From contig JAQWLT010000002.1 in assembly GCA_029247205.1 (NCBI GenBank), forward strand, positions 1 through 64,000: a stretch of 64,000 nucleotides of DNA. The letters run 5' to 3'. The notes under the pieces are model-generated. The model saw nothing but the letters and a program-made list of their open reading frames with translations. It was not told the origin of the DNA and made no database searches. This document shows positions 2,642 to 14,818 of this stretch, piece by piece; the first letter of the stretch is position 1, and every line of letters starts with the position of its first letter. This stretch comes from Phycisphaerales bacterium (GTDB lineage: Bacteria > Planctomycetota > Phycisphaerae > Phycisphaerales > SM1A02). A program made the translations under genes and the position numbers.

Positions 2642-4465
2642 GTGACCGCCCAACCAAGTCTGATGCCCAATATGCACGTGCCTGTCCCGAAAACAGGGCG
2701 AGTGAGGCAGCTACTTTTTCGATTCGGTTGGCCGTTCTATCGATGGATAAGCAAGCTTGACCACGCAGATTCCGCCTACGCCGCAGGCGCCGCAGCCCCG
2801 AGCCATGGACAACTCGCCTGCCTCAAGCGTGCAGGAATTGATTGGAGCATCTCCGACACCGACCTCGCTCGAATTCCGGCCGAAGGCCCGGTGCTGCTCA
2901 TATCAAATCATCCGTATGGCATGGGCGAAGGCGTGCTCCAAGGCATGTTGCTGCGAAGCGTTCGCGAGGACTACCGGCAAATTGTCAATGAAATGCTTGC
3001 ATGCTTTCCAGACTTCGCCAAGCGGTACATCATGGTCAACGCATTTGAGAGTGCAGAAGCCAGTCAGCAGAACAGCTCGCCGCTCCGCGATGCACTTGCA
3101 TGGCTCAAGGCCGGGCATGCCATCGGCACCTTTCCTGCCGGAGCCGTATCGCACCGCACATGGGCCCGTCGAAAGGCCTTGGACCCGCCATGGAACCCAA
3201 GCATTGTGATGCTTGCCAAACGATCCAATGCCACGATCATTCCCGTCTTCTTTCACGGCCAGAACCGGTGGCCCTTTCAAGTGGCTGGACTCTTCTCGGC
3301 CCGCCTGCGAACTGCGCTCATCCCACGCGGTTTTGCAGACCTCAAAGGCAAAACCATTCAAACGACTATTGGCCCACCTATTCCTGCTGAGAAGTTACAT
3401 TCCTGCGCCAACCGCACTGATGCAATCGAGTACCTTCGTAGTCGAGTCTATATGTTGGAAGCACGAAAAAATAAACACGCGGCCAGCCCAGTCCAGGCTA
3501 CGCCCGCAACGAATCTTCCTCGGCAAGCGGCACCCTCTGCTGACTTCGCCTCAGAGATTGCGGCACTAGCACCCGGCGATCACCTCGGTGACAGCGGCAA
3601 ACTGAGCGTCTACATTGCTCGCGGCGAGCGAATTCCTTTGATCTTGCAAGAGATTGGACGACTTCGGGAAGTTGCATTCCGCCGTGTGGGGGAAGGCACT
3701 GGCAACGAACTCGATCTTGACGACTACGACAATACCTATCGGCATCTCTTTATCTGGAATCACAAGACCGAAGAAATCGTGGGCTCGTATCGGCTTGGCC
3801 TCAGCGACGAGATTCTGGCAGAACGGGGCATCAACGGGTTCTACACGCGGACACTCTTTCACTATGACGAGCGAATGCTTGAGAGACTTGGCGACTCTAT
3901 CGAACTGGGTCGTTCATTCATTCGACCTGAATATCAAAAGGGGTTCAAGCCACTCATGTTGCTTTGGAGAGGAATCTCCAATTTTGCGGCGAAGCAGCGG
4001 CGGTATCGACACTGCTTTGGTGTCGTCACAATCAGCAATGAATACACCGAGACATCGAAGGAACTGATGACGCGGTTTCTTGTACAAACCGAAATGCTCG
4101 AATCTCATCACTCCCTTGTCAGTTCACGCACACCCTACGCCCCACAGTCAACCGAAGGCATTGATGTGTCAGCCCTACTTAAAGGCTGCGCAACCATTGA
4201 AGATGTAGATGAGCTCGTGCGAGATCTTGAACAAACCAAAGTCGGTGTACCGGTACTTGTCAGGCAGTATCTCAAACTCAACGCAAAATTACTGGCGAAC
4301 TTCAATGTCGATCGCACGTTTGAGAATTGCATTGACGGGCTGATGCTGGTGGACTTCATGCAAGTCGAGCGACGAATCGCCCACTTCTATCTTGGTCGCG
4401 ATCTCGCCTCGGCGTTTCGTACACACCACGGCTTCAAGCCGTTTGACGACTCGTCCGACGACTAG
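2642..4465 (+). CDS. OlsF-like bifunctional acyltransferase (lysophospholipid acyltransferase + GNAT/hemolysin-type N-acyltransferase)
   Basis: A 607-residue protein from a GTG start. The first ~270 residues look like a PlsC-type acyltransferase: VLLISNHPYGMGEG near residue 90 and GTFPAGAVSHRTW near 160, the second typical of the hemolysin-like branch. The second half (about 300-520) resembles the OlsB/GNAT-like domain, with SIELGRSFIRPEYQKG and FGVVTISNEYTETSKELM. This order matches OlsF, which makes ornithine lipids by N-acylating ornithine and O-acylating the lyso-lipid. Aminolipid synthesis at the inner membrane is therefore inferred; the amino acid used is unknown. The HX4D box is altered (HPYGMGE, no Asp at the expected place). 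It stands alone, convergent with a hypothetical gene. Confidence 0.7.
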   Translation: MTAQPSLMPNMHVPVPKTGRVRQLLFRFGWPFYRWISKLDHADSAYAAGAAAPSHGQLACLKRAGIDWSISDTDLARIPAEGPVLLISNHPYGMGEGVLQGMLLRSVREDYRQIVNEMLACFPDFAKRYIMVNAFESAEASQQNSSPLRDALAWLKAGHAIGTFPAGAVSHRTWARRKALDPPWNPSIVMLAKRSNATIIPVFFHGQNRWPFQVAGLFSARLRTALIPRGFADLKGKTIQTTIGPPIPAEKLHSCANRTDAIEYLRSRVYMLEARKNKHAASPVQATPATNLPRQAAPSADFASEIAALAPGDHLGDSGKLSVYIARGERIPLILQEIGRLREVAFRRVGEGTGNELDLDDYDNTYRHLFIWNHKTEEIVGSYRLGLSDEILAERGINGFYTRTLFHYDERMLERLGDSIELGRSFIRPEYQKGFKPLMLLWRGISNFAAKQRRYRHCFGVVTISNEYTETSKELMTRFLVQTEMLESHHSLVSSRTPYAPQSTEGIDVSALLKGCATIEDVDELVRDLEQTKVGVPVLVRQYLKLNAKLLANFNVDRTFENCIDGLMLVDFMQVERRIAHFYLGRDLASAFRTHHGFKPFDDSSDD

Positions 4466-5670: not shown

Positions 5671-6486
5671 GTGACCACCACGATGCCACCTATTCAAGAT
5701 TCCAATACCGACGCTATCCCAGACGTCCAAGGCCGATCTGACGAACGACGTGTCGCCATCGACCGAGTCGGCGTCAAAGGCATTCGCTATCCGATTACCA
5801 TCGCGACACGTGCAGGCAGTACCGAGGCAGCCGATGCAACGGTCAATATGTACGTGTCACTGCCCGAAGATCGCAAGGGCACACACATGAGTCGGTTTCT
5901 GGAATTACTCAATGACTATCGCTCAGGCATGACGCCTCAGCGGATTGTCGAACTGTGCCACCAGATTCGCTCAACCCTTGATGCGGAACGTTCGCATGTA
6001 GAGATGTCCTTCACCTACTTCATCTCGAAGGCAGCCCCAGCAACGGGACGCCCTGGGCTCATGGACTATTCCGTCCGTATGGCCTGCGATGCCTCAAGCA
6101 CCGGCGACATCTTCACGCTTGGCGTGACAGCACCGGCGACGAGCCTGTGCCCCTGTTCGAAGGAGATTTCGGCCTACGGCGCGCACAACCAGCGATGCTT
6201 GATTACCGCTGAAATCCGCATGAATGCCATGGTCTGGATCGAAGAACTCGTTGAGTACATTGAATCAGCAGCGAGTTGCCCGGTGTACAGCGTGCTCAAA
6301 CGAGCAGACGAGAAAGTCGTCACCGAGCGGGCATATGAGAACCCCAAATTCGTCGAAGACACCGTTCGCGACCTCGCACATATGCTTGACGGCGTCGATC
6401 GCATCGACTGGTATCGAATCCACAGCGAAAACTTTGAGTCGATCCACTCGCATAACGCGTACGCTGAGATCGAACGAACAAAGTAA
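5671..6486 (+). CDS. folE2: GTP cyclohydrolase I, type IB (FolE2)
   Basis: A 271-residue protein matching the zinc-independent type IB GTP cyclohydrolase that makes 7,8-dihydroneopterin triphosphate for folate or queuosine synthesis. Visible hallmarks are VGVKGIRYPITI near residue 35, the long central strand set, and SLCPCSKEISAYGAHNQR near 155-172, containing the conserved Cys and the SKEIS.YGAHNQR signature. Near the end, VEDTVRDLAHML also fits the family. Length is normal. The start is a GTG at 5671, with an ATG four codons later. Regulation by zinc limitation is known in other bacteria, but no operator was recognised here. Confidence 0.93.
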   Translation: MTTTMPPIQDSNTDAIPDVQGRSDERRVAIDRVGVKGIRYPITIATRAGSTEAADATVNMYVSLPEDRKGTHMSRFLELLNDYRSGMTPQRIVELCHQIRSTLDAERSHVEMSFTYFISKAAPATGRPGLMDYSVRMACDASSTGDIFTLGVTAPATSLCPCSKEISAYGAHNQRCLITAEIRMNAMVWIEELVEYIESAASCPVYSVLKRADEKVVTERAYENPKFVEDTVRDLAHMLDGVDRIDWYRIHSENFESIHSHNAYAEIERTK

Positions 6487-7438: not shown

Positions 7439-8650
7439 ATGTCTACCTGCACCCTGTCACGCCGCGGATCTGAGGCACCAGCCTCGCCAATCAGGGCCCT
7501 CGCCGAGGTCGCCCGCGATGCCGCGAATCGAGGAATTACGGTCCACGGGCTCAACATTGGCCAACCGGACATCCCCACTCCTCCGCAAATGCTGCAGGCC
7601 TATCGCGACTTTCATGATGAGGTGCTCGCCTATGCCCCCAGCGACGGCTTCCCAGACCTTCGTGAAGCCTTAGCGGCCTGGTACACCAATGGCGGTGGCG
7701 TGCATCGGCCAATCGAGGCGGATGACATTGTCGTCACGACGGGTGGCTCAGAAGCCTTACTGTTCGCTATCGCTTGCGTTGCCGATCCTGGCGACGAGAT
7801 TCTGGTGTGCGAGCCCTACTACACAAATTACTGGGGCTTTAGCCACATGCTTGGAGTTGAGGTCGCCCCGGTCACACTCTCAGCAGATGATGGCTTCAAG
7901 GTTCATCCTGACCGCATTGAGGCCGCGATCACCGGCAAGACCCGCGCCCTGGTACTGCCCACGCCCGGCAATCCAACTGGCACGGTGCTGACGGCAGACG
8001 AACTTGCTCGGATCGCCGCAATCTGCGCCGAGCGTGACATATTCTTCATCTGCGACGAGGTCTACCGCGACTTTGTCTATGACATGCCCGCTGGCACGAG
8101 AGCTGCTTCGCTGCTCGACCAACCCATCGCCGATGAGTATGCCATCATCATCGACTCTGTCTCCAAGCGATACAGCGCCTGTGGCGCGCGGATGGGATGG
8201 CTTGTCACACGTAACTCAGAGGTTCGGGAAGCCGCGCTGCGGTTTGGCCAAGCACGGCTCTCTCCGGCAACGGTCGATCAGCATGCAGTGAAGGCTGCAC
8301 TCAGCACACCTGAGTCGTGGTTCCGTGAAGTCAATGCAGAATATCAGTCACGCCGAAACACTTTGGTAGAAGGACTCCGTGGCATTGGTCTGGACGTGCC
8401 CATGCCCGAAGGCGCCTTCTATCTGGCGATTCCGCTTCCTGTTGACGACGCCGAGGCATTCTGCCACTGGCTCGTAAGCGAATTTCAACTAGATGGCGAG
8501 ACGGTATGCCTCGCGCCACTCAATGGCTTCTACCGCACTGAGGGCCTCGGATGCAACGAAGTCCGCATGGCGTACTGCGTCAAGGAAGAAGTGCTTCGTA
8601 GCTGTGTGCGAATCCTCGATGCAGCGATCAAGGCGTGGAAGATTCGCTAG
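7439..8650 (+). CDS. Pyridoxal-phosphate aminotransferase, class I (aspartate aminotransferase-like)
   Basis: A 403-residue fold-type I aminotransferase. Visible: GLNIGQPDIPTPPQ at the N-terminus, YAPSDGFPDLREALAAWY, VTTGGSEALLFA (cofactor phosphate loop), LPTPGNPTGTVL with the Asn-Pro pair, FFICDEVYRDF with the Asp that pairs with the pyridine nitrogen, and SVSKRYSACGARMGW with the Schiff-base Lys near residue 243. The C-terminal NEVRMAYC supplies the carboxylate-binding Arg. It transfers amino groups between an amino acid and 2-oxoglutarate; exact substrate uncertain (Asp, aromatic or Ala). Start chosen because GAGGAGG lies 8 bases upstream. Its end overlaps the convergent gene by 23 bases. 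Confidence 0.88.
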   Translation: MSTCTLSRRGSEAPASPIRALAEVARDAANRGITVHGLNIGQPDIPTPPQMLQAYRDFHDEVLAYAPSDGFPDLREALAAWYTNGGGVHRPIEADDIVVTTGGSEALLFAIACVADPGDEILVCEPYYTNYWGFSHMLGVEVAPVTLSADDGFKVHPDRIEAAITGKTRALVLPTPGNPTGTVLTADELARIAAICAERDIFFICDEVYRDFVYDMPAGTRAASLLDQPIADEYAIIIDSVSKRYSACGARMGWLVTRNSEVREAALRFGQARLSPATVDQHAVKAALSTPESWFREVNAEYQSRRNTLVEGLRGIGLDVPMPEGAFYLAIPLPVDDAEAFCHWLVSEFQLDGETVCLAPLNGFYRTEGLGCNEVRMAYCVKEEVLRSCVRILDAAIKAWKIR

Positions 8651-9148: not shown

Positions 9149-10387
9149 ATGTTCAATGATCGGATTCGGCCGTTCAGCCCGTATCATGGCCCGTGGAGCA
9201 GACGGGGTTGGAGCCGATCAGTGCAGGAACTTGCATCCAACGGATCAGTCAGTGTCACGTGGCGTCATCGCGTCCATACGTGCCGTCATGCGTTTGCCGA
9301 CGAGGGTGGAGCCCTGGCCAACCTCCTTCCGTGTGACAGCGGGCCCGCTCAGGTCTTGATCGTCCTCGACGAGGGCCTCCTCAGGGCCCAGCCAGACTTG
9401 CCCGCCCAGCTCTCGGCATGGTCAGACACGCACCGATCGCTGGTACATGCTGCAGGAGCGCCCCTCATTGTTCCTGGTGGCGAACAAGCCAAGAATGATC
9501 GGACAGAGTTCGACCTCGTTGTTCGCGCTATTCATGAGCGCCATATTTGCCGCCGCTCCTATGTGCTTGCCCTTGGTGGCGGTGCTGTATTGGATGCAGT
9601 GGGCTTTGCCGCGGCAACCGCACATCGTGGCGTACGGCTCATTCGCATGCCATCGACCACACTTTCGCAGGCTGACGCTGGTGTTGGTGTCAAGAATGGA
9701 CTCAATGCTTTTGGTGCCAAGAACCTCGTTGGCTCTTTCGCCCCGCCGTGGGCGGTCGTCAACGACACCATGCTGCTTTGCACCTTGAGCGATCGTGATT
9801 GGCGTGCGGGACTCAGTGAAGCAGTCAAGGTGGCGCTCCTCAAGGACCCCTCTCTTCTCTTTGAACTCGAACACACTGCCACAGCCCTGCGAGGCCGAGA
9901 CCTTGATGTCATGGAACGTATCGTGACGCGAACGGCTGAACTACATGTGTCACATATCGTTGCGGGTGGTGACCCATTTGAACTTGAGCGAGCAAGACCA
10001 CTGGACTTTGGTCACTGGTCTGCGCATCAATTAGAGCAGATGACAGGCTTTGGCCTCTCCCATGGCGACGCTGTTGCCATTGGCACACTCATCGATCTTC
10101 AATATGCCACTCTGATGCTTGGCGCATCCTCAGAACTCTCGCAGCGAGTGGCCAATTGCTTGGAATCACTTGGATTTCCACTGCACTGCGATGCACTCGG
10201 CGAAGAAGATCGACTGCTCGAAGGAATCGAACGGTTCCGCGAACACCTTGGTGGTTCACTTGCCATCACCATGGTGACGGCACCAGGGGTCAGCGATGAG
10301 GTCTCGCACATCGATCTGGACTGTATGCGACAAGCGATTCGCTTGACCCGCCGCCGTGGCGATGATCGTGCCTCGCGGGCCGGATAG
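9149..10387 (+). CDS. eboD: EboD: 3-dehydroquinate synthase-like sugar-phosphate cyclase
   Basis: A 412-residue protein of the dehydroquinate synthase fold. It shows VPGGEQAKND, the NAD-binding LALGGGAVLDAVGFAAAT, MPSTTLSQADAGVGVKNGLN, the Lys-bearing GLSEAVKVALLKD, and DFGHWSAHQLE with GLSHGDAVAIG, which hold the zinc ligands. The form HWSAHQLEQ and the neighbours mark it as EboD, a dedicated branch of sugar-phosphate cyclases, rather than AroB. Reaction in the ebo pathway is not established; cyclisation of a sugar phosphate is inferred. AGGAGG lies about 15 bases upstream, and the true start could be slightly downstream. It heads the ebo cluster. Confidence 0.85.
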   Translation: MFNDRIRPFSPYHGPWSRRGWSRSVQELASNGSVSVTWRHRVHTCRHAFADEGGALANLLPCDSGPAQVLIVLDEGLLRAQPDLPAQLSAWSDTHRSLVHAAGAPLIVPGGEQAKNDRTEFDLVVRAIHERHICRRSYVLALGGGAVLDAVGFAAATAHRGVRLIRMPSTTLSQADAGVGVKNGLNAFGAKNLVGSFAPPWAVVNDTMLLCTLSDRDWRAGLSEAVKVALLKDPSLLFELEHTATALRGRDLDVMERIVTRTAELHVSHIVAGGDPFELERARPLDFGHWSAHQLEQMTGFGLSHGDAVAIGTLIDLQYATLMLGASSELSQRVANCLESLGFPLHCDALGEEDRLLEGIERFREHLGGSLAITMVTAPGVSDEVSHIDLDCMRQAIRLTRRRGDDRASRAG

Positions 10388-10398
10388 GATGGGCAGCC

Positions 10399-10698
10399 AT
10401 GCAACGCACCTGCCCGATGACCAGCCAAGAAATTGTCGATGCGTACTTCCTTGAGACCCGGGCGAAGGTGCTTGATATCGCAGCCTTTCTAGACCGGCTC
10501 GACCGTGGTAAAACGAGCGGCGACGACTTTCGAGTGCAAGCACTGCGTGATGTGATCGCCTGCTTGATCGATGGCAATGACGATCGGGTCCGCCGCATTC
10601 AAGTCTTACTGAGCGACCACAGCACCGATCCCATTGAGGCAGCTCCCATGCAAGGTGCCTTTGGTGCACCACCAAAGGCTGATGGGACGTCGACATGA
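10399..10698 (+). CDS. Small helical protein in the EboA position
   Basis: A 99-residue protein between EboD and EboB, with the segment IVDAYFLETRAKVLDIAAFL (amphipathic helix) and FRVQALRDVIACLIDG, and a Pro/Ala-rich tail. It begins 11 bases after the EboD stop, and its stop overlaps the EboB start (ATGA). In other ebo clusters this slot holds EboA, usually over 200 residues, so this is either a strongly reduced EboA or an unrelated small subunit. No catalytic motif is visible. Coupled translation suggests it works with the ebo enzymes. Confidence 0.6.
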   Translation: MQRTCPMTSQEIVDAYFLETRAKVLDIAAFLDRLDRGKTSGDDFRVQALRDVIACLIDGNDDRVRRIQVLLSDHSTDPIEAAPMQGAFGAPPKADGTST

Positions 10699-11498
10699 AG
10701 TACATCGATCCACACATCCACATGGTGTCGCGGACAACCGATGACTATCGGCGTATGGCCCAAGCGGGATGTGTCGCTATTACTGAGCCAGCGTTTTGGG
10801 CTGGTTTCGATCGGTGCAGCGCCGATGGTTTCCGAGACTACTACCGCCAACTGACTGATACCGAACCGAAGCGGGCAGCACAGTACGGAATTCAACACCA
10901 CACGTGGCTCTGCATCAATCCAAAGGAAGCCGAAGACATCGGCTTCGCGCGTGAAGTGATGTCCATCATTCCAGACTTTCTTGACTGCCCTAATGTGTTA
11001 GGAATCGGCGAGATCGGTCTCAACAAGAACAGTAAGAATGAATTGCACGTACTCGAAGCTCACCTTGCACTGGCAAAGGAACGCAACACGCTCGTACTCG
11101 TGCACACGCCGCATCTTGAAGACAAACTCAAGGGCACACGACTGATTATGGCCGCTGTTGATAATGCAGGCCTCGATGCAGATCGCGTGCTGATTGACCA
11201 TGTTGAAGAGCACACCGTCGGAGAAGTGCTCGACCGTGGTTTTTGGGCGGGCATGACGTTGTACCCAGACACCAAGTGCACACCGCAGCGGGCCGTCGAC
11301 ATTCTGGAGCGATGGGGTACCGATCGCATTTGGATGAACTCAGCGGGCGACTGGGGTGACTCCGACCCGCTGGCCGTGCCGAAGGCTCGGATGGAAATGA
11401 AACGTCGACGACACCCCGCTGCCATGATCGAGCAAGTGACGTTTGGCAATCCAATCGAGTTTCTGGGCCGCTCACCAAATTTCCGGGTCGAAGCCTGA
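10695..11498 (+). CDS. eboB: EboB: TatD-like metal-dependent hydrolase
   Basis: A 267-residue TIM-barrel hydrolase beginning MKYIDPHIHMVSRTTDDYRR, whose DPHIHM motif supplies the first metal ligands. GIGEIGLNKNSKNE gives the conserved Glu, LVLVHTPH the middle His, and RVLIDHVEE the next His; WMNSAGDWGDSDPL near the end supplies the final Asp. The pattern AITEPAFWAGFDRCS is characteristic of the EboB branch. Its substrate is unknown. The start overlaps the previous stop by four bases, and the next gene (GTG at 11500) starts one base after its stop. Confidence 0.88.
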   Translation: MKYIDPHIHMVSRTTDDYRRMAQAGCVAITEPAFWAGFDRCSADGFRDYYRQLTDTEPKRAAQYGIQHHTWLCINPKEAEDIGFAREVMSIIPDFLDCPNVLGIGEIGLNKNSKNELHVLEAHLALAKERNTLVLVHTPHLEDKLKGTRLIMAAVDNAGLDADRVLIDHVEEHTVGEVLDRGFWAGMTLYPDTKCTPQRAVDILERWGTDRIWMNSAGDWGDSDPLAVPKARMEMKRRRHPAAMIEQVTFGNPIEFLGRSPNFRVEA

Positions 11499-11499
11499 C

Positions 11500-12573
11500 G
11501 TGCCCGTTGATCGGCTTGGCTGGTGCACCAATGTCTTGTCGGCCAATACGGTTGCGTCGCTCCTGAGCCAACTTGACAAGGTCTCTGCCTCGCTGCCTGC
11601 AGCAACACCCATTGGCCTGTGGCTTCCAGCATCGATGTTAGAAGAAGACCTGGGCCCTCTCCGTCAGTGGCTTGCCAACACAAAAACTTCAGTACTTGGC
11701 CTCAATGCCTTCCCGATCGATGCCTTTCACGCACCCATCGTCAAGTGTGATGTGTATCGGCCGCACTGGGCAGACTCGTCACGACTGACGTACACGCTCG
11801 CCGCCGGCCAAGCACTCGCATCAATGCTGCCAGATGGCGGCAGTGCAGGCCTCAGCACCGTGCCGATCGGCTGGCCAGATGACGATATTGACTTCAAGAT
11901 AGCCGCCTCCAATATTCGTGCCGCGTGCACACAACTCGCCGACCTATCGAAGCAAACCGGCAAGGACTTACATCTTGCCATCGAACCGGAGCCCGGTTGT
12001 GTCGTGAGCACGGCGGCGGATCTCGCCCGCTTTGTCGAGTCATATGCACTTGTCGACCTCGCCCGCGACGGGCTACTGCGAGCATGTCTTGATGCCTGCC
12101 ATCTTGCGGTCATGCACGAGCCTGCGAGCGAAGCAGTGTCTGCACTTGCGGCAGCTGACATCACGATCGGTCGACTACAACTCTCATCAGCACTCGAGGC
12201 CGACTCGGCGGTTGATCTCGCCGAGCTTGCAGAACCACGATGGCTACATCAGACAACCATCATGCGAGATGGTTCCTGTGAATTCTTCCGTGATATTCCA
12301 GAAGCGATCGGTAATGCTGATCCGGGCGGAATCTGTCGCACACACCTGCATGTGCCTATTCACCTGACACACCTCGGTGATCTTCGCACCACGCAGTCCG
12401 TCATGTATGACCTACTTGCAGCCACCGCTGACCTACCTTGTCGACCCACGCTCGAAGTCGAAACCTATGCGTGGTCGGCGCTGCCTACGAAAGCGCGGGC
12501 TCCAAGTCTGGGTGAAGATATTGCTGCCGAACTCGTCTGGGCCAACCACGCAATCAAGGAGGCTGGCTGGTGA
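11500..12573 (+). CDS. eboE: EboE: xylose isomerase-like TIM barrel
   Basis: About 357 residues from a GTG start giving VPVDRLGWCTNVLSANTV; the frame is open upstream to 11443, but that part overlaps EboB. The LGWCTNV opening is typical of EboE. A TIM barrel is suggested by DLHLAIEPEPGC (metal Glu), RACLDACHLAVMHE (Asp and His ligands) and CRTHLHVPIHL near the C-terminus. The family is metabolite-traits like, related to sugar-phosphate isomerases and epimerases; its reaction in the ebo pathway is not known. AAGGAGG near its end serves the next gene, whose GTG overlaps its TGA. Confidence 0.85.
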   Translation: MPVDRLGWCTNVLSANTVASLLSQLDKVSASLPAATPIGLWLPASMLEEDLGPLRQWLANTKTSVLGLNAFPIDAFHAPIVKCDVYRPHWADSSRLTYTLAAGQALASMLPDGGSAGLSTVPIGWPDDDIDFKIAASNIRAACTQLADLSKQTGKDLHLAIEPEPGCVVSTAADLARFVESYALVDLARDGLLRACLDACHLAVMHEPASEAVSALAAADITIGRLQLSSALEADSAVDLAELAEPRWLHQTTIMRDGSCEFFRDIPEAIGNADPGGICRTHLHVPIHLTHLGDLRTTQSVMYDLLAATADLPCRPTLEVETYAWSALPTKARAPSLGEDIAAELVWANHAIKEAGW

Positions 12574-13445
12574 GCAACTGCCGCGATTGGTTCACGACGC
12601 TCCGCGCGGCCAACCTGCCAACGGTTTGGTCCAATGTGCTATTGGGTGCTGGACTTGTTGCTGTTGAAGGCATCTTGGTGATACCGCTGCTTGGCGTACT
12701 CGCGGGCACATCCTGCATCTACCTCGGCGGCATGTCACTCAATGACGCAATCGATGTCAACTTTGATCGCAGAAACGCTTCGACAAGGCCAGTCGCGTCT
12801 GGTCGCATCGGCCCGGCGACTGCAATGACAGCGGGTGTACTCTTGCTCTTGGTGGGCTGGTTTGTCATTACGTTTACCGCCGAGTTGTCGGCGATGGCCA
12901 TGAATCTCTCACTCCTACTCGTGCTACTCGTGTCGCTCTATCAGTGGACGCACCGCGGCAGCGCTATCATTGCCGCCGGGCTGATGGCAGGGTGCCGCAT
13001 GTTGGTGCCTGCCATTGCAGCGGTCATGATGACTGGTGGAATTCCACCCATCGTATGGGTGGCGATCGCAGGTGTCGGCTGCTGGACGATTGGCGTGACA
13101 ATGATGGGTCGCGGCGAACGTGGTGGTGAGCGAGCGTTTCAGTGTGGATGGATCTGGCTAGTTGTGGCTGCGGTAGCCATTCCCCTCGTGACGGCCTTCG
13201 CGCCAATGGGTGATATCGCTGGAGCAGCCGCAGGACTCCTCATTATTCTGGTCGCCTGGATTCCGGCCGCAGCTCGCCAACTTCGAGCCGGCCAAATTGG
13301 GCAGGGAGTCTGCTGGGCCATTGCAGGTTTTGCCGTACTAGACTCGGGCATGCTGCTCGCCGCCGGGCAACCGGCTTGGGCAAGCGCTACCATGGTTTGC
13401 GCAGCAGTCACGCTTGGCGGGCAGCGTCTTGGTGGAGGATCCTAA
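12570..13445 (+). CDS. eboC: EboC: UbiA-family prenyltransferase
   Basis: A 291-residue integral membrane protein of the UbiA superfamily. The first Asp-rich motif is NDAIDVNFDRRNASTRP near residue 52, preceded by NLPTVWSNVLLG; some eight hydrophobic spans follow. The second Asp-rich motif is weak or absent in the visible C-terminal half. UbiA enzymes join a polyprenyl diphosphate to a polar acceptor at the membrane; in ebo clusters the acceptor is thought to be the product of the EboD/EboE branch (inference). GTG start with a strong AAGGAGG seven bases upstream, overlapping the EboE stop (GTGA). Confidence 0.88.
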   Translation: MSNCRDWFTTLRAANLPTVWSNVLLGAGLVAVEGILVIPLLGVLAGTSCIYLGGMSLNDAIDVNFDRRNASTRPVASGRIGPATAMTAGVLLLLVGWFVITFTAELSAMAMNLSLLLVLLVSLYQWTHRGSAIIAAGLMAGCRMLVPAIAAVMMTGGIPPIVWVAIAGVGCWTIGVTMMGRGERGGERAFQCGWIWLVVAAVAIPLVTAFAPMGDIAGAAAGLLIILVAWIPAAARQLRAGQIGQGVCWAIAGFAVLDSGMLLAAGQPAWASATMVCAAVTLGGQRLGGGS

Positions 13446-13450
13446 ACCAC

Positions 13451-14818
13451 ATGGCCAACCGCACCGCTGTCATCGACCTCGTTGCACTCACAGATACGCA
13501 GTTGCAGCACATGCCACGGCTGACTTCGCTGCTCACAAGTGGGAGTCGCTGCCGGCTGCAGCCTCCGCTTCCTGCAGTAACGTGCACCAGCCAATCCACC
13601 ATGCTTACTGGCTCGCCGCCCGCGAGCCATGGCATCGTCGGTAATGGGTGGTACAACCGAACGACTGCCGAGGCACGCCTTTGGCAGCAGTCCAATCACC
13701 TCGTGCAAGGCGAGAAGATCTGGGATCGGCTGAAGCGCATGGACCCCGACATCACGATCGCCAATTGCTTTTGGTGGTACGCGATGTACGCAGATGTCGA
13801 CGCAACCGTCACGCCACGACCGATGTATCTGGCTGACGGTCAAAAGATCCCTGACATCTGGACATCCCCCCCCACGCTGCGAGACGAGTTGCAAATGCGG
13901 CTCGGACAATTCCCACTCTTCAGATTCTGGGGACCAGCAGCGGACATTTCAGGAAGTCGCTGGATTGCCGACGCAGCGCGGCATGTCGACATCACGAGCG
14001 ACCCCACACTGCTACTGGTATATCTGCCCCACCTCGACTACGGGCTACAGAAACTAGGACCTACGCACGCAGACATGCCCCGGGAGTGCCGCTTGCTCGA
14101 CGAGGTTGCCGCAAACTTGATCGAAGATCTACAGGGGCGAGGCCGACAAATTCTGATCGTCAACGAGTACGGAATCGCACCAGTGACCGGTGACGTCTCG
14201 CCCAATCGTGAGCTTCGGTCACATGGATTTCTTCAGGTGCGAAACGAAAAAGGCCGCGAAATGCTCGACGCCGGCGCCAGTCGCGCCTTTGCTATTGCCG
14301 ACCATCAGATCGCCCATGTGTATGTTGCCAAAAACACACCGCTATCTGAAGTATGTGACTGCCTTGCTCAACTCGACGGCGTCGACCAAGTTCTCGTTGG
14401 GAAGTCCATCGAAGAAGCAGGGCTTGATCACGAGCGTTGTGGTGATATTGTGCTGATCGCCACACAAGGTCGATGGTTCAGTCACGACTGGTGGAATGAT
14501 CCGGATCAAGCCCCCGACTGGCAACGCACCGTCGAAATTCATCGCAAGCCTGGGTATGACCCGCGAGAGTTATTCATTGACCCAGCCATTCGGTTTCCGA
14601 AGTTCGCCATCGCATGGCGACTGCTCAAGCGGCGGCTTGGATTACGTACCTTGCTCGATGTCATTCCTTTAGACGCCTCACTTGTGCGAGGCAGTCATGG
14701 TCGAGTCGATCCAGAACTCGACCCCATATTGTGGTGCAGCGAAGACATACCAATGCCAGACCGCCTACCGATGACATCGGTCGCGGATCTCATTGAACAA
14801 CTTGTTCTATCCGAGTAG
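13451..14818 (+). CDS. eboF: EboF: type I phosphodiesterase / nucleotide pyrophosphatase-like
   Basis: A 455-residue alkaline-phosphatase superfamily protein. It shows AVIDLVALTDTQL (first metal Asp), TCTSQSTMLTGSPPASHGIVGNGW (Thr/Ser nucleophile region and HGI.GN.W; positions about 41-65), and YLPHLDYGLQKLGP (second metal site Asp and His), then HGFLQVR and a late metal His region at SHGRVDPELDP. These enzymes cleave phosphodiesters or pyrophosphates. In ebo clusters it is the last conserved member. Start at 13451, five bases after the EboC stop; the frame is open upstream to 13376 but overlaps EboC. Confidence 0.85.
   Translation: MANRTAVIDLVALTDTQLQHMPRLTSLLTSGSRCRLQPPLPAVTCTSQSTMLTGSPPASHGIVGNGWYNRTTAEARLWQQSNHLVQGEKIWDRLKRMDPDITIANCFWWYAMYADVDATVTPRPMYLADGQKIPDIWTSPPTLRDELQMRLGQFPLFRFWGPAADISGSRWIADAARHVDITSDPTLLLVYLPHLDYGLQKLGPTHADMPRECRLLDEVAANLIEDLQGRGRQILIVNEYGIAPVTGDVSPNRELRSHGFLQVRNEKGREMLDAGASRAFAIADHQIAHVYVAKNTPLSEVCDCLAQLDGVDQVLVGKSIEEAGLDHERCGDIVLIATQGRWFSHDWWNDPDQAPDWQRTVEIHRKPGYDPRELFIDPAIRFPKFAIAWRLLKRRLGLRTLLDVIPLDASLVRGSHGRVDPELDPILWCSEDIPMPDRLPMTSVADLIEQLVLSE

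Follow-up and report, generated by a model that had tools for sequence, protein, structure and literature searches.

The ebo cluster of the window and its short second gene

The window, by which we mean the whole 64,000-nucleotide stretch of Phycisphaerales DNA that was analysed, carries an ebo cluster with the gene order D-G-B-E-C-F. It belongs to a 2.26 Mb assembly that is 86% complete. The genes and the matches by which they were named are as follows:

9149–10387, + strand: eboD-like sugar phosphate cyclase, AroB-related (NF004852, 470 bits, cut-off 333; a homologue precedes eboG in each of the two Deinococcus clusters)
10399–10698, + strand: probable eboG, 99 residues (BLASTP and HHalign matches to Deinococcus EboG)
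10695–11498, + strand: eboB, TatD-like hydrolase of the EboG type (TatD_DNase over the Pfam cut-off; EboB tree, 100/98; HTPHL, DHxEEH and Trp71)
11443–12573, + strand: eboE, xylose-isomerase-like TIM barrel (NF035939, 292 bits, cut-off 250)
12570–13445, + strand: eboC-like UbiA prenyltransferase (UbiA over the Pfam cut-off; NF035940, 72.9 bits, below the cut-off of 250)
13376–14818, + strand: eboF-like type I phosphodiesterase (Phosphodiest, 172.9 bits)

The listed TTG start of eboE overlaps eboB, with the family match beginning at 11515, and that of the eboF-like gene overlaps eboC; in both cases the true start probably lies later. Upstream of the cluster lie genes for a folE2-type GTP cyclohydrolase (5671–6486) and for a PLP aminotransferase that scores above the NF005744 cut-off (7439–8650); at 2642–4465, an acyltransferase (PF19576) and a GNAT domain (PF13444) are fused in one protein of 607 residues.

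The second gene of the cluster runs from an ATG to a TGA stop codon, which overlaps the ATG of eboB by four nucleotides in the sequence ATGA at 10695. In comparisons with four relatives (91–97 codons aligned), changes fell mostly on the third codon position (e.g. 21/18/58 at positions 1/2/3), and dN was 0.23–0.31 against a dS of 1.7–2.0 in three of the four, the fourth dS being not computable; from this we conclude that the frame is coding. The chosen ATG is backed by a Cys-Pro pair near the N-terminus, Pro6 being present in 54 of the 56 rows reaching it in a 71-row alignment. A spurious reading frame between eboD and eboB, as might be suspected from the short length and from searches of Pfam and NCBIfam that returned no significant match, is refuted by strong purifying selection and by the conservation of the family across phyla. 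The original prediction of a 99-residue protein, with the start of EboB overlapping its end, was thus accurate.

AlphaFold2 modelling on 71 sequences yielded three main helices at residues 9–36, 44–56 and 63–71 and a short helix at 85–88 within an unsure tail, with a mean pLDDT of 83.5 and a pTM of 0.68, in keeping with the helical character that had been anticipated. Eight charged residues (R21, D32, R33, R36, D43, R45, R63 and D73) were invariant in 71 of 71 sequences; further invariant residues were found in the stretch A28–R33 (AAFLDR) and at S72, A87 and G89. Divergent members are shorter and have no C-terminal tail, its absence being judged by length in part of them. A link between this tail and EboE was considered and rejected, as evident from a genome with the tail and no EboE (G040) and from three with EboE and no tail (G041, G048 and G060). 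A search of the PDB with the model gave no fold match at E 0.001, the only PDB match returned by Foldseek having an E of 5, and no sequence relative was found there at E 0.1. Assignment to a known domain family likewise failed, since no Pfam or NCBIfam family matched more than three of the 71 members (best single E 0.0013).

Assignment to EboG and comparison with EboA

In 2016, eboG was reported as a mutually exclusive alternative to eboA (Open Biol. 2016, PMC5133447). The passages of that paper on EboG describe Deinococcus, Truepera, Herpetosiphon, Thermithiobacillus and Acidobacteriaceae KBS 96 as having no eboA and a short, poorly conserved eboG in the cluster, and mention the gene in 'many other bacterial species', with data not shown there. 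They further give a negative HHalign result for homology between EboA and EboG, an EboB tree separating EboA taxa from EboG taxa, and, for three Planctomycetes, no clustering of ebo genes. In the open-access literature, EboG was encountered as an operon gene only in PMC5133447, which was also, among the matches listed, the only paper tying ebo genes to Planctomycetota.

Two Deinococcus plasmids carry ebo clusters in the order D-small-B-E-C-F, the same as in the window, and the small gene in the slot is the sole gene annotated as hypothetical that is common to both. BLASTP of the window protein against these two slot genes gave 35% identity over 89 aa (E 5e-17) and 43% over 96 aa (E 3e-22), and HHalign of the EboG alignment with Deinococcus/Gemmatirosa EboG gave a probability of 99.9% (E 1e-31). 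From these comparisons, the common gene order and the naming of Deinococcus as an eboG bearer in PMC5133447, the window gene is very probably (roughly 0.9) eboG, which replaces eboA in the second of the two operon versions known for ebo.

The match to the EboG of PMC5133447 itself rests on genus, slot and the text of its EboG passages; Truepera, Herpetosiphon and Thermithiobacillus were absent from the best 80 of at least 467 relatives. As described in those passages, that EboG resembles the window gene in being small, in occupying the eboA slot, in occurring in Deinococcus and Acidobacteria, in having no HHalign relation to EboA and in accompanying a separate EboB clade. It differs in that no ebo clustering was seen there in three Planctomycetes, whereas the window gene lies in a full Phycisphaerales cluster. 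EboG is a little-noticed but already known family, of which the window gene is a real member. New here are the complete eboG clusters in Phycisphaerales, which correct the view, drawn from only three Planctomycetes, that clustered ebo operons are missing from this group, and the active-site signature of EboG-type EboB sequences described below.

The slot directly upstream of eboB is also that of EboA (NF035938), which is helical, like EboG, by a prediction reported in the part of PMC6282210 on this protein, and an accessory role is presumed for both. This common position, the small and helical make-up of the window protein and the mutual exclusiveness of the two would suit a shortened, diverged EboA keeping a minimal core, which was one of two readings in the original prediction. 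HHalign, however, returned a probability of 0.13% for 15 small proteins against three EboA proteins and of 0.2% for 71 small proteins against six EboA sequences (two of them consisting of the HMM-matched part only), compared with 99.9% and 98.8% in the positive controls (the 71 EboG against Deinococcus/Gemmatirosa EboG, and actinobacterial against other EboA, respectively). In addition, the EboA model matched none of the 71 EboG family members at E 0.1, and EboG is itself an old family of similar length in several phyla. Minimal EboA, very improbable on these grounds, was therefore ruled out: as a true member of the EboG family, the window gene is no shrunken EboA. What stood was the other reading, a different small protein (putatively a subunit of an ebo complex) in the EboA slot, which corresponds to the EboG described in the relevant passages of PMC5133447 as the slot holder of the second operon version.

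EboA and EboG show no detectable homology and differ in length. Four annotated EboA genes encode 228–247 aa, in agreement with the stated length of more than 200 residues, which the 99 aa of the window protein do not reach. EboG lengths in relatives, with starts chosen by script, were 73–133 aa (51 loci) and 88–134 aa (80 loci). A full-length EboA elsewhere in the window's own genome (86% complete) was not found, the EboA model giving no match at E 10. Above its cut-off, the model matched in none of 61 genomes (the window's own and 60 relatives), with eight sub-threshold matches (E 0.003–0.09).

Occurrence of eboG and its linkage to eboB

In the same 61 genomes, searched for EboB at 1e-15 and for eboG at E 1e-3 or better, EboB was present in 48 and the small gene in the same 48, so that its co-occurrence with EboB, on which the original prediction had been made to depend, holds in 48 of 48. 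It lies adjacent to and before eboB in 46 of the 47 relatives concerned, the two being on different contigs in the remaining one (G023). The order D-G-B-E-C-F was seen in 27 of the 47, some contigs being cut and some clusters having inserted genes; EboE gave no match at 1e-8 in G007 (84% complete, cut contig), nor in four further relatives named below.

A second survey covered named genomes, the best 80 of at least 467 confirmed relatives being analysed. Phycisphaerales and further Planctomycetes made up most of these 80; by record title, Acidobacteriia (two), Armatimonadetes (one) and Akkermansiaceae (one) were also represented. Here, eboG precedes eboB in 79 of the 80 loci, the 80th lying at a contig end; the two genes overlap by four bases in 38 of the 79, and the order D-G-B-E-C-F was found in 35 of the 80. 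In a plasmid collection of 72,556 records, EboG was detected at E 1 in three. Ranked by closeness of their EboB to that of the window, the same three come first among 51 EboB-bearing records.

The third survey comprised 149 Planctomycetota genomes (EboG at 1e-5; EboA at 1e-5, every match also exceeding the model's cut-off; EboB at 1e-30). Twenty genomes had EboG, 39 had EboA and none had the two; EboB was found in 119, including all EboG and all EboA genomes. Independence would predict some 6.6 genomes carrying both, against none seen; the hypergeometric P of 1.4e-4 for this difference is only indicative because it ignores the kinship of the genomes. When the genomes are ranked by their EboB match, the first 20 (at least 295 bits) are the very 20 that have EboG, and the next match, at 276 bits, comes from a genome without it. 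Of the 119 genomes with EboB, 60 gave a match to neither EboA nor EboG, which implies that at least other EboB classes manage without either. In 20 of these 60, no third slot protein beside eboB was common to most, and some pairs of close relatives have common eboB neighbours. An EboC-like gene was seen near two such partnerless EboB loci (L187 and L188, among e.g. L169–L188).

The two genes were adjacent in 15 of the 20 EboG genomes of this survey and unlinked in five (G083, G144, G161, G181 and G192). These five, together with G023, show that linkage is not required. Loci L189–L193 encode EboG of 82–90 aa and show no eboB over roughly 4 kb around it, and in L189 and L192 the eboG gene lies beside a hisF-like gene, as judged by eye. 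In seven genomes (G040, G041, G044, G048, G052, G056 and G060), the cluster has dissolved, with eboD on another contig or more than 3 Mb away, and eboG and eboB are still together, which speaks for EboB being the functional partner of EboG. EboC-like homologues (all below cut-off) and EboF-like homologues were found elsewhere in the same seven genomes, of which G040, G044, G052 and G056 gave no EboE match at 1e-8. Near the lone eboG-eboB pair, a Gfo/Idh/MocA oxidoreductase was recognised by Pfam in three loci (L070, 5705–6973; L073, 1642–2844; L078, 1685–2872).

EboB classes and a proposed role for EboG

EboB, a TatD-like hydrolase, is the neighbouring enzyme and candidate partner of EboG and not its relative. 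In a tree of 37 EboB rows, 28 EboG-type sequences, including that of the window, are split from the nine others at 100/98. For the analysis of active-site signatures, 164 loci in which the EboB match spanned 200 residues or more were taken, shorter ones being dropped, and the removal of 18 duplicates left 146. It was found that a Leu inserted after HTPH, Glu171, His173 and Trp71 occur in 113 of 113 distinct EboG-type EboBs and in none of the 33 others, of which 10 are accompanied by EboA and 23 by neither partner. Gloeothece, counted among these 23, has a weak EboA-like match upstream. The classes (loci L029–L203; window positions 71, 141, 171 and 173) thus read HTPHL, DHxEEH and Trp71 versus HTPH- and DHx[N/T]E. 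The residues that we take to be the TatD metal ligands are invariant in both classes. The only PDB sequence match of EboB at E 1e-5 was 3guw (AF_1765).

Because all EboG-type EboBs fall into a single clade (100/98, 37 rows), the signature counts as one evolutionary event and may reflect one old split rather than EboG itself. In a mirror-tree comparison of 39 full clusters, the EboG tree agreed most strongly with that of EboB only when Deinococcus was included (partial r 0.71); without Deinococcus, the values were 0.27 for EboB and 0.27 for EboC, so that EboB did not stand out. A natural EboG-EboB fusion was not seen in the translated loci.

Taken together, co-occurrence, position and the class split of EboB make it reasonably probable that EboG is a dedicated partner of EboG-type EboB. 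In the mechanism that we propose, EboG would be a cytosolic three-helix protein, probably made in translational coupling with EboB, as the gene overlap in many genomes suggests. It would bind EboG-type EboB, stabilising, positioning or gating it, and the unrelated EboA would play the same part for the other EboB class. As the EboB classes diverge in the loop that follows HTPH and in the DHxEEH segment, the choice of partner probably goes with a different active-site geometry of EboB, perhaps with a different substrate.

A lesser chance is given to an EboG that does not bind EboB and acts as a regulator or as the terminal-step enzyme of its pathway version. In its passages on EboG, PMC5133447 itself considers both regulation and a terminal step yielding alternative products, unlinked eboG genes exist, and the invariant charged residues listed above could make up a ligand site. 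Such a role is rendered rather unlikely by the fact that the occurrence of EboG, and mostly also its position, follows that of EboB, the two remaining paired in the seven genomes with a distant eboD, as well as by the outcome of the family and fold searches, with no consistent match to an enzyme or regulator family and nothing of similar fold in the PDB at E 0.001.

Returning to EboG as the partner of EboB, a more speculative and on the whole doubtful extension would be that the ebo operon represents two chemically distinct systems, with EboG supplying or shaping part of the rebuilt EboB site (HTPHL, DHxEEH and Trp71). If this were true, the rebuilt site would imply a substrate or geometry different from that of the EboA-partnered EboB.

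The ebo cluster is widespread and, according to the section of PMC6282210 on this function, required for the export of the scytonemin precursor in Nostoc. The split of EboB into classes matching the presence of EboG offers a concrete handle on the roles of EboA and EboG, as it indicates which enzyme pairs with which partner for tests, and it singles out Trp71, Leu141, Glu171 and His173 of the window EboB for mutation. On haloarchaeal plasmids (Halobaculum, L035; Haladaptatus, L165), where neither EboA nor EboG lies beside EboB, an ebo-like cluster was observed that comprises EboB, UbiA, sugar isomerases and a phosphodiesterase, joined in one case by an inositol-3-phosphate synthase.
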